DNA from: Candidatus Saccharimonadota bacterium
GTDB lineage: Bacteria > Patescibacteriota > Saccharimonadia > Saccharimonadales > UBA4665
Reading direction: 5' to 3'
Length of the DNA stretch: 64,000 nucleotides
NCBI GenBank assembly: GCA_003133385.1
Contig: PKXF01000008.1
Coordinates: forward strand, 93,270-157,269
The notes under the pieces: model-generated
Told to the model about the DNA's origin: nothing
Seen by the model: the letters and a program-made list of their open reading frames with translations, nothing else
Database searches by the model: none
Program-made: the position numbers and the translations under genes
Shown here: positions 10,836 to 49,507 of the stretch, piece after piece
How positions within the stretch are numbered: position 1 is the first letter of the stretch
Layout: the number at the start of each line of letters is the position of its first letter

Positions 10836-11894
10836 TTACATCGACAGGTTGGGCTCGATGCCAAGGGAATAGGGGTCGGCCTGGGGCTGGTTGAGACTGG
10901 CTTTGAAGCAGCCCAAAGCCGCCACCATGGCGCCGTTGTCAGTGCAGAGCCGAATGTCCGGGTATTCGATAGCAATATGGAGTCTGTCAGTGAGTTGGCG
11001 GCGCAGATCGGCATTAGCCGCCACCCCGCCGGCAATGACAATGCTGCTCGGCGCGAATTCGTCACAGGCCAGTTTGGCCTTATCGACTACCGTTTCAATT
11101 GCTACCCGTTGGAATGAGGCAGCAATGTCGCGCTTCTGAGCTACGGAGAGGCGCCCAGGCAGCTTTATAGAAGGGAATCCGTAATCTTCCCCGATTTGAG
11201 CTTGTGCTAATCGTAGAACGGCCGTTTTGAGGCCGGAAAAACTAAAGTCGTACTTGCTCATCTTGGCCTTGGGCAATCGGAAAGCAGTAGGATTACCTTG
11301 GGCGGCGGCTTTAGCAACCGAAGGCCCACCGGGGTAGGGCAGCCCAAGAATCTTAGCTACTTTATCAAAAGCTTCACCGATGGCATCGTCCTGGGTTTGG
11401 CCAAGGAGGGTGTAGTCAAAATGATCCCGGAAGAGAACCAGTTGGGTATGGCCGCCAGAAACTATAATTGCCAACATTGGGAACGACGGCTGTTCCATAC
11501 GCATAGCTAAACCGGGAAGGGAAGTCTCCGTCAAGAAGTTGGCATAGACATGAGCCTCCACGTGGTTTATAGCGTAGAGTGGTTTGCTGTGAGCAATTGC
11601 CAGTGTCCGGGCAGTCAAAACGCCGATCAGTAAACTGCCGCCGAGCCCGGCGCCGTAGGTAACGGCGATCCCGTCGATGTCAGCCCAAGTGCAACCGGCA
11701 TCATCTAATGCCTGTTGGATGATCGGCAGAATAACTTCAATATGACTGCGGGCGGCCACCTCAGGTACCACACCCCCGTATTGGACGTGTAAATCCATGC
11801 TTGAGGCCACGGCGTTACTTAGCAGCCGCCGGCCATCTTCAACCACCGCTGCCGCTGTCTCGTCACAGCTAGTTTCAATACCCAAAATTCTCAT
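10836..11894 (-). CDS. tsaD: tRNA N6-adenosine threonylcarbamoyltransferase TsaD
   Basis: A 352-residue member of the Kae1/TsaD (Gcp) family, which adds the threonylcarbamoyl group to A37 of ANN-decoding tRNAs with TsaB/TsaE and TsaC. It opens with MRILGIETSCDETAAAVV, has the metal-binding NHVEAHVYAN (HxxxH) near residue 112, ATPase-fold IVSGGHTQLVLF, and a C-terminal CTDNGAMVAALG. Full length. It shares a 23-base divergent promoter with murE in which a palindromic -10 box serves both genes; the tsaD mRNA would be leaderless. Confidence 0.95.
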   Translation of the reverse strand: MRILGIETSCDETAAAVVEDGRRLLSNAVASSMDLHVQYGGVVPEVAARSHIEVILPIIQQALDDAGCTWADIDGIAVTYGAGLGGSLLIGVLTARTLAIAHSKPLYAINHVEAHVYANFLTETSLPGLAMRMEQPSFPMLAIIVSGGHTQLVLFRDHFDYTLLGQTQDDAIGEAFDKVAKILGLPYPGGPSVAKAAAQGNPTAFRLPKAKMSKYDFSFSGLKTAVLRLAQAQIGEDYGFPSIKLPGRLSVAQKRDIAASFQRVAIETVVDKAKLACDEFAPSSIVIAGGVAANADLRRQLTDRLHIAIEYPDIRLCTDNGAMVAALGCFKASLNQPQADPYSLGIEPNLSM

Positions 11895-11901
11895 CAGTTT
11901 A

Positions 11902-11911
11902 CAGTATACTG
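11902..11911. promoter_or_regulatory. Palindromic -10 element shared by tsaD and murE
   Basis: CAGTATACTG is a perfect 10-bp palindrome. It gives TATACT on the plus strand (11905-11910), 7 bases before the murE ATG, and TATACT on the minus strand (11908-11903), 8 bases before the tsaD ATG. Each polymerase would have its -35 region inside the opposite gene, and both mRNAs would be leaderless. Only one complex could occupy the site at a time. Confidence 0.65.
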
Positions 11912-11917
11912 AGAGGA

Positions 11918-13219
11918 ATGAGTTTTCGAAACATTGTTAAATCACTTATACCTCGCAGACTGTTTGCCGGAGTAGAGCCTTATGGGCACTTGTTTGAAGC
12001 GGTATTGCTAAACACGATCAGCGGCTTCCCGGGACGGGGTTTAAAAGTTATCGGTGTTACAGGAACCAATGGCAAGACCACGACTTCCTATTTGATCCAC
12101 CGCATGCTTCACGAGGCCGGATATAAGGCAGGGCTTATGAGTACAGTAGGCTATGGTGTCGGCGCCAATATTACCCCGCAAATGCATCACATGACGAATG
12201 TCAGCACGCCTGAGTTCATGCGGCGCCTAAAATGGATGAGAAAGCAGGAGGTGGAGTGGCTTGTCTTGGAAACAACCAGTCACGCCTTGGCCCAGAACCG
12301 AGTTTGGGGCGTACCATATTCAGTGGCGGTTTTGACGAATATTACCCATGATCACTTGACCTATCATCGGACCTTTGAGCGATACAGGGAAGCTAAACGC
12401 CGACTCTTTACACTGACAGACCGTAATAAAAAAGGCTTACGCATCGGCGTTATCAACGCCGAAGATCCGAGCGCTGAGGCATTTGCCAATTCGGTCACAC
12501 ACACCCTAACATACGGAATCAAAAAAGGCGACATCCGGGCTCGCAATATCAAACTTACCGCCTCTGGCGTGAGCTATCAGGCGGAAATCGGTGACGATAA
12601 TTACGCTATCCACTGTCAAATACCAGGCACTTTTAACGTCTATAATTCTTTGGCTGCAGTTGGCGTAGGACGGGCAATCGGCCTGAGTAAACAGCAGATA
12701 GAGCAGGGCATTGCTGCCCTTGAGGGCGTCGAGGGCCGCATGACAACTATAGACGAAGGCCAGAAATTCACTGTTATAGTGGATTATGCCCATACACCCG
12801 ATAGTTTTGAGAAGTTATTTAAAGATATAAAACCAGTCGCGCAGGGCAAATTAATCGTACTATTCGGTTCGCTAGGCGGAGGTGATAAAGGTAAGCGGCC
12901 AGAACAGGGCAGGCTGGCCGGTGAATATGCCGACGAGGTTGTTATTTGCGAAGAAGATGACCGCCAGGAAGACGGACGGGCTATCATGGACGAAATTGCA
13001 GCTGGAGTCCAAGAGAAGGGAAAGGTTCGAGACAAAGACCTTTTCCTGGTGCATGACCGTACGGAAGCTATGAATTTCGCCGTACGGCAGGCCAAGCCAG
13101 GAGATATCCTCTTGTTGCTGGGCAAAGGCCATGAGAAAACTATCGAGCATGCCGATGGCGAACACCCCTGGGACGAAGTCGGCACAGCCCGCTCCGCTTT
13201 ACGCTCACTATCATCGTAA
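11918..13219 (+). CDS. murE: Mur ligase, MurE-like (UDP-MurNAc-tripeptide synthetase family)
   Basis: A 433-residue protein with the Mur ligase ATP-binding core (VIGVTGTNGKTTT, residues 44-56), the central-domain TTSHALAQNRVWG and ITHDHLTYH, and the C-terminal ligase domain (VDYAHTPDSFEKL). It would add the third residue of the peptidoglycan stem peptide in the cytoplasm. It lacks most of the UDP-binding N-terminal domain: only about 43 residues precede the P-loop, against roughly 100 in typical MurE. The amino-acid selectivity motif (DNPR in diaminopimelate enzymes) reads EEDDRQEDG, so the amino acid added is uncertain. It could be a MurE-like paralogue with another substrate. Confidence 0.8.
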   Translation: MSFRNIVKSLIPRRLFAGVEPYGHLFEAVLLNTISGFPGRGLKVIGVTGTNGKTTTSYLIHRMLHEAGYKAGLMSTVGYGVGANITPQMHHMTNVSTPEFMRRLKWMRKQEVEWLVLETTSHALAQNRVWGVPYSVAVLTNITHDHLTYHRTFERYREAKRRLFTLTDRNKKGLRIGVINAEDPSAEAFANSVTHTLTYGIKKGDIRARNIKLTASGVSYQAEIGDDNYAIHCQIPGTFNVYNSLAAVGVGRAIGLSKQQIEQGIAALEGVEGRMTTIDEGQKFTVIVDYAHTPDSFEKLFKDIKPVAQGKLIVLFGSLGGGDKGKRPEQGRLAGEYADEVVICEEDDRQEDGRAIMDEIAAGVQEKGKVRDKDLFLVHDRTEAMNFAVRQAKPGDILLLLGKGHEKTIEHADGEHPWDEVGTARSALRSLSS

Positions 13220-48366: not shown

Positions 48367-48599
48367 CCAATGCGAAAAGTCAGCCGCTTGTCAAGCTGAC
48401 AGCGGCGTTTGATGTCCGGGCCGCGCAGACGCAAAGTATTAGCCAGGGCGGCACTAGGAACGGCAATAATAATGTCGCGTTCTCGGACTTGCACGCCTAC
48501 GACTACCCCGAACTCGGCCAGAACATACTTTTTGATGCTGGTTATCTCAGGCGGCTCGTCATAGTCTTTATTACTTAAAATACTTTGCAGGGAATCCAT
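48363..48599 (-). CDS. Small DUF721/DciA-like protein (tentative)
   Basis: A 78-residue protein: an N-terminal helix, then AEFGVVVGVQVRERDIIIAVPSAALANTLRLRGPDIKR and RLTFRIG. The strand-helix-strand pattern with A-L-A-N-x-LRLR resembles the KH-like part of DUF721 (DciA), a replicative helicase loader partner. The match is short, so this is tentative. TATACT (48613-48608, minus strand) ends 8 bases before its ATG. Divergent from mutM with 32 bases between. Confidence 0.45.
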   Translation of the reverse strand: MDSLQSILSNKDYDEPPEITSIKKYVLAEFGVVVGVQVRERDIIIAVPSAALANTLRLRGPDIKRRCQLDKRLTFRIG

Positions 48600-48607
48600 G
48601 TCCCATT

Positions 48608-48624
48608 AGTATACTTGTTACAAT
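48608..48624. promoter_or_regulatory. Divergent leaderless -10 boxes of mutM and the DciA-like gene
   Basis: Plus-strand TACAAT (48619-48624) lies 7 bases before the mutM ATG; minus-strand TATACT (48613-48608) lies 8 bases before the ATG at 48599. Both genes fit in a 32-base gap with no room for leaders. Confidence 0.6.
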
Positions 48625-48631
48625 AGACAAT

Positions 48632-49507
48632 ATGCCAGAATTACCAGAGGTTGAGACTCTGCGCCTTGGCCTTAGTGAACTGTTGCCGGGGCGCACCATT
48701 AGTACGGTGGATTTTAATTGGCCCAAGTCATTTCCTAATTCTGATGGAGACGTGCAGCGATTCTTAATTGGTGCAAGCGTTACTAAAATAAGACGCCGCG
48801 CAAAAGTACTAATAATTGAACTCACAACAAACTACTCGCTGGTCATCCATCTTAAAATGACGGGGCAGCTGGTATTTAGCAGCAGCGGCAAAAGGTTTGG
48901 CGCAGGCCATCCAAGCGATTCGTTAGTTGGCAAGCTGCCAGATAAATCCACGCGGGTAACGCTAGGCTTCAAGGACGGAAGCTACCTGTTTTTTAATGAC
49001 CAACGTAAATTCGGCTGGATGCGTCTCTTGCCGACAATCGAGATAATGAACCTGGATTTTTTCAAAAAAGTCGGACCAGAACCGCTCAGCGACGACTTTA
49101 CGTGGCAGATGTTCCGCGACAGGCTACTGCGCCGCCCAAATTCTATAGTTAAAGCTGCAATTCTGGATCAAACGGTCATTGCCGGGATCGGTAACATATA
49201 CGCCGATGAATCATTGTGGGGGGCGAAAATTCATCCAGCTACGAGAGTCAGTCAATTATCGCCACGGGATTTCAAAACTTTGTATAAAGAACTTGTTTTT
49301 GTTCTTAAACTGGCTATAGAAAAAGGGGGTTCTAGCGACAGGAATTACGTAAATGCCGAAGGCAAAAAGGGCAGCTACTTGAGCTTTGCCCGGGTTTTCC
49401 GAAGAGAGGGCCAGCCCTGCCCGCGTTGTGGCACTATTATAATAAAAAGCCGTGTCGCTGGCCGGGGAACGCACACCTGTCCTTACTGTCAACGAATAGC
49501 TGGTTAG
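48632..49507 (+). CDS. mutM: Formamidopyrimidine-DNA glycosylase
   Basis: A 291-residue Fpg/MutM that removes 8-oxoguanine and other oxidised purines. The catalytic N terminus is MPELPEVETLRLGL, the middle part has HLKMTGQLVF and DQRKFGWMRL, the helix-two-turn-helix ends in IAGIGNIYADESLWGAKIHP, and the C-terminal zinc finger is CPRCG...CPYCQR. Full length with all catalytic elements. Leaderless start as described for the promoter. Confidence 0.96.
   Translation: MPELPEVETLRLGLSELLPGRTISTVDFNWPKSFPNSDGDVQRFLIGASVTKIRRRAKVLIIELTTNYSLVIHLKMTGQLVFSSSGKRFGAGHPSDSLVGKLPDKSTRVTLGFKDGSYLFFNDQRKFGWMRLLPTIEIMNLDFFKKVGPEPLSDDFTWQMFRDRLLRRPNSIVKAAILDQTVIAGIGNIYADESLWGAKIHPATRVSQLSPRDFKTLYKELVFVLKLAIEKGGSSDRNYVNAEGKKGSYLSFARVFRREGQPCPRCGTIIIKSRVAGRGTHTCPYCQRIAG

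Follow-up and report, generated by a model that had tools for sequence, protein, structure and literature searches.

How are two divergent genes transcribed from a gap of 23 bp that holds a perfect palindrome? In the window, by which we mean the whole 64,000-nt stretch of DNA analysed here, tsaD and a murE-type gene start back to back around the sequence CAGTATACTG. The features of the gap and its two genes are as follows.

10836..11894, minus strand: tsaD, 352 aa (ORF list; Pfam PF00814, TsaD), with its ATG at 11894-11892
11895..11917: intergenic gap of 23 bp between the divergent tsaD (minus) and murE (plus), from the sequence and the ORFs
11902..11911: CAGTATACTG, a ten-base palindrome, from the sequence
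11903..11910: AGTATACT, the 8-bp conserved core of CAGTATACTG, from the sequence and the alignment of relatives
11903..11908, minus strand: predicted tsaD -10 hexamer TATACT, 8 nt before the ATG
11905..11910, plus strand: predicted murE -10 hexamer TATACT, 7 nt before the ATG
11918..13219, plus strand: murE-type Mur ligase, 433 aa (ORF list; Pfam PF08245 and PF02875, the middle and C-terminal domains), with its ATG at 11918-11920

The tsaD start codon is fixed by the conserved N-terminus in a comparison of TsaD proteins. The label murE is provisional and is taken over from an earlier, sequence-only reading of this DNA. That reading placed TATACT on both strands of a 23-bp gap, 7 and 8 bases from the start codons, and the sequence and ORFs bear it out: the spacers to the murE and tsaD ATGs are 7 and 8 nt when counted from the hexamers, and 6 and 7 nt when counted from the ten-base palindrome, which occurs at a single place in the 1.09-Mb genome. 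The predicted opposite-strand -10 elements overlap, as in a bidirectional promoter, with TATACT on both strands and TATA in common. No TTGACA-like hexamer, as expected of a sigma70 promoter with a -35 box, lies 16-18 bp before the -10 at the gap. We consider it highly probable that the gap is a bidirectional promoter of a published kind, and that the murE and tsaD transcripts are leaderless or nearly so.

Leaderless-type signals at tsaD and murE

Leaderless bacterial genes have been described as carrying a TANNNT signal some 12 bp ahead of the start codon (PMC3160421), with the caution that AT-rich bias at that site may have other causes (PMC5397173). Both tsaD and murE resemble these TA-led genes: the TANNNT lies at about that distance, and there is no SD motif in the normal place. 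They differ from them in standing back to back with overlapping boxes; the accessible part of PMC3160421 makes no mention of divergent genes. One feature counts against a leaderless murE and towards a short leader, namely the SD-like GAGAGGA that abuts the murE ATG at an unusual distance. Among the ATG genes of at least 80 aa in the window (n=52), 16 have a strict -10 box at 5-10 nt and 11 an SD motif at 4-11 nt; tsaD and murE are both in the -10 class, without SD. Across the window these are two exclusive classes, as 0 of the 52 genes have both signals (Fisher p 0.012).

In the family, a search via the TsaD protein finds a match in 83 of 93 genomes, and the upstream sequence could be read at 81 loci, 40 of which have a divergent murE upstream of tsaD. 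Whatever the neighbour, 75/80 family loci have a TANNNT whose end is 5-10 nt upstream of the tsaD start, compared with 14-24 of 80 in the six other 6-nt bins, and an SD-like motif precedes tsaD in 2/80. In three genomes of genus g14 (G017, G018 and G023) the TsaD match falls into three pieces within one long frame (419-459 aa), as if it contained extra segments. The literature searched, which takes in few subscription journals, yielded no study of leaderless genes in Saccharibacteria or Patescibacteria, and none that maps their transcription starts.

The murE/tsaD gap among relatives

We searched 392 genomes of the order with promoter-blind patterns and examined all matching places. The blind murE search is confined to starts with ATGA or ATGG, to gaps between about 15 and 35 bp and to TsaD N-termini of the standard type. 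Two genomes (G153 and G045) have two rows each in the resulting murE/tsaD table, and both are outside the short-gap set, which consists of 31 genomes in which no more than 32 bp separate the murE and tsaD starts. The sequence-only reading had asked for a check of palindrome conservation, and the answer is positive: AGTATACT is kept in 29 of these 31 gaps, representing 25 genera and 10 families by group codes. The eight bases of AGTATACT are invariant in the 29 by class definition, and the other gap positions are variable, with 0.02-0.88 bits at the 7 positions to the left and 0.02-0.68 bits at the 6 to the right. The distance from AGTATACT to tsaD is 7-10 nt at all 29 loci; the distance to murE is 6-9 nt at 26 and 13-14 nt at the other 3. 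An AG precedes the murE-side TATACT in 29/29 short-gap rows versus 5/22 long-gap rows (p 1.8e-9, with kinship ignored), and 4 of those 5 come from one genus with two palindromes, one beside each gene. In the family set found via the TsaD protein only, AGTATACT is present in 14/14 loci whose gaps measure 23-32 bp. Most of the named records that show this arrangement carry the title Candidatus Saccharibacteria. One record titled Chlamydiae bacterium (L124) has the same murE/tsaD region as a family relative (G006), and its title is probably wrong. That many distant relatives share the arrangement suggests that it is used and not accidental.

In the two exceptions of the short-gap set, both genes have a TANNNT box, at 6-7 nt from the start codon. 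The 24-bp gap of L189 contains ACTGTATCAT, in which two different TANNNT boxes share 2 bases and both stand 7 nt from their starts; in the 31-bp gap of L217, 6 bp separate the two boxes. Where the gap reaches 35 bp (L158 and L177), the boxes are two and separate. Gaps of 46-200 bp make up 29 rows, and there the two genes generally have separate boxes, usually non-palindromic. Only four of those 29 rows (three genomes) contain AGTATACT; all belong to genus g23, and each has two copies, one per gene. Two other g23 loci (L064 and L066) have one copy in a short shared gap of 25 bp, and the long g23 form may be derived by doubling of the shared element. Of the long g23 loci, L070, L071 and L072 have gaps of 103-116 bp, with a copy of AGTATACT by each start.

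To ask whether the short gap had one origin or many, we built a tree of TsaD N-termini, for which 133 of 147 rows are long enough. The short-gap state takes 16 changes on the best tree, of which supported branches force only 2. For gap class against palindrome, only 1 pair on independent well-supported branches is obtainable, so that many of the 29 loci may go back to a single inherited arrangement.

The mutM locus and other divergent pairs

The window has a second place of this kind at 48597-48634, where mutM and a small ORF diverge, with AGTATACT and TACAAT in the 32 bp between them.

48599, minus strand: start of a conserved 78-aa ORF with no Pfam match
48608-48615: AGTATACT, 8 nt from the 78-aa ORF
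48632, plus strand: start of mutM, divergent from the 78-aa ORF

The TACAAT in the window's genome is separate and lies 7 nt from mutM. For the small ORF, an apparent likeness to DciA/DUF721 received no support from Pfam. A promoter-blind mutM search matched 49 of the 392 genomes, and 44 of these loci were checked for the small ORF (G052, G054, G061, G074 and G077 were left out). It is present with at least 60 aa in 37/44; it failed in L237, L239, L240, L242, L254 and L267, and L263 is truncated at the end of the stretch. With G051 (L267) removed from 12 shared boxes, there are 11 ORF-confirmed genomes in which the boxes overlap by 4 bp, 8 of them as AGTATACT and 3 as AGTATAAT. The latter is non-palindromic, yet it reads TATAAT in one direction and TATACT in the other; this speaks for a pair of overlapping -10 hexamers more than for an operator. 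In G090 the mutM gap is only 17 bp and contains GAGTCTATAATAGACCT with TATAATA, in which TATAAT and TATTAT overlap with 6 nt on either side. Its starts, if leaderless, would be 18 bp apart, which is the commonest published spacing.

Other divergent pairs with a double-sided box and long ORFs occur in the family: xthA-like/pyrH-like (L229), rdgB-like/tilS-like (L230) and endonuclease-like/ROK-like (L223). A double-sided box also lies between tsaD and other neighbours in L095, from a record titled Vogelbacteria, and L103 (Peregrinibacteria). The gene names at these five loci are candidates, from a reading of the N-termini. Since the loci were picked for their box, they show that such pairs can occur and say nothing of frequency. 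The loci analysed here contain 16 candidate divergent short-gap pairs beyond the murE/tsaD and mutM pairs; 3 have the box, these being pairs that had been chosen for it, and most of the remaining candidates look like spurious ORFs. In the window's genome there is no convincing excess of double-sided boxes (ANTATANTN{5,10}ATG has 36 and 41 matches, versus 33 and 34 for the control), and none of three further co-located double-sided places there has convincing ORFs on both sides. Elsewhere in the family, double-sided AGTATACT-ATG places occur at about chance frequency by a rough estimate among the matches listed; 4 of 10 that were checked have ORFs of at least 78 aa on both sides.

A proposed promoter core shared by two genes

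In the mechanism that we propose, two opposite-strand TATACT hexamers would overlap by TATA to form AGTATACT. Because TATA is self-complementary, any two TATACT hexamers sharing it make AGTATACT, and the palindrome is explained without a regulator. RNA polymerase would bind in either orientation, on steric grounds one molecule at a time, and transcription would begin about 7 nt past each hexamer, predicted at about 11917-11918 for murE and 11896-11894 for tsaD. The 5' ends would then lie at or within about 3 nt of the start codons, and both mRNAs would be translated leaderless or nearly leaderless. The upstream part of each promoter would sit in the first codons of the other gene, with no good -35 box, and the box would be maintained by selection on both genes. 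If the gap is so short and both genes are leaderless, the -10 boxes must overlap, and the TATA overlap would be the usual solution. When the two boxes share 4 bp, the gap length is 8 + d1 + d2, where d1 and d2 are the distances to the two starts; with each distance at 7-9, this comes to 22-26 bp, the range into which 26 of the 29 loci fall. The remaining three, with 13-14 nt on the murE side, have gaps of 31-32.

The sequence-only reading had described one -10 box driving two leaderless genes. The shared -10 region stands as the best explanation, with the 29/31 conservation and the mutM locus behind it; the single hexamer gives way to two TATACT hexamers with a four-base overlap. We part from its further claim that the two genes would share initiation events. 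One bound polymerase at a time is stated for bidirectional promoters (PMC12825309), and if only one direction is open at a time, initiations would be mutually exclusive and not shared. According to the accessible text of PMC12825309, the five E. coli bidirectional promoters tested there had a basal activity too low for competition to play a part, so any coupling between murE and tsaD would presuppose a strong promoter.

Three other readings have to be weighed against a shared -10 region. The palindrome could be the operator of a dimeric regulator acting on both genes, with the promoters elsewhere or incidental, and a small operator could indeed look like a perfect 8-bp palindrome kept in 29 loci. 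We regard an operator as very unlikely, since the symmetry does not extend past the two merged hexamers (C or T stands at position -1 in 27/29, but A or G at position +8 in only 11/29), the box at the mutM locus is the non-palindromic AGTATAAT in 3/11, and genes that lie apart each have a TA-type box near the start, mostly without the AG. The AGTATACT word is also found at just 11 places in the genome, mostly within genes. This is no genome-wide excess (8 places for the reversed control), and the lack of enrichment is what one would see if the palindrome were a chance product of an AT-rich gap. Chance is nonetheless extremely improbable, as the same distances are found in 29/31 short-gap relatives from 25 genera despite a variable rest of the gap, and the varied flanks rule out recent copying of every AGTATACT instance. 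As AGTATACT is not enriched as a word, what counts is its position, and the position is conserved.

The box may instead be used by one gene only, the other being transcribed with a real leader from upstream, inside its neighbour. The 3/29 loci with the box 13-14 nt from murE and not 6-9 would fit such one-sided use. We think it unlikely: the tsaD box is at leaderless distance in 75/80 family loci regardless of the neighbour, the murE-side boxes in long gaps are at similar distances, and a scan of 11600-12200 for a sigma70-like two-box promoter or -35 match finds 0 sites (0.8 in shuffles).

Prokaryotic bidirectional promoters with a symmetric -10 element were reportedly described by Warman et al. 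2021. The murE/tsaD gap is like these in its predicted opposite-strand starts, its common -10 region and its place between divergent genes, as far as the accessible parts of PMC12825309 and PMC10268837 describe them. The class takes divergent starts 7-25 bp apart, with published spacings most often of 18, 10 and 23 bp (PMC12825309), 18 being the commonest (also PMC10268837). Here the predicted spacing is 21-24 bp, close to the published 23-bp class (PMC12825309). Unlike at those promoters, both transcripts are predicted to be leaderless, the gap is approximately the bare promoter core with each -35 region in the other gene, and the arrangement is conserved at one gene pair across 25 genera. 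Apart from being generally needed, murE and tsaD are not known to be functionally linked. This is a known kind of promoter, in a variant that we did not find in the literature searched.

More generally, we propose, with slightly less than even confidence, that in Saccharibacteria, and perhaps in other Patescibacteria, -10 symmetry restricts divergent leaderless genes to a few spacings (about 17 bp for TATAATA and about 20-26 bp for AnTATAnT), the 8-bp element being a complete, mutually exclusive two-gene promoter core selected at several loci across the order. If this is true, gene starts would report transcription starts on both strands, and in this lineage, whose members are difficult to cultivate, the genome sequence by itself would suffice to identify bidirectional promoters and, with no need of transcriptomes, to measure their conservation. 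Two genes would also be dividing one promoter on a very small scale, the upstream regions lying inside each other's coding sequence.
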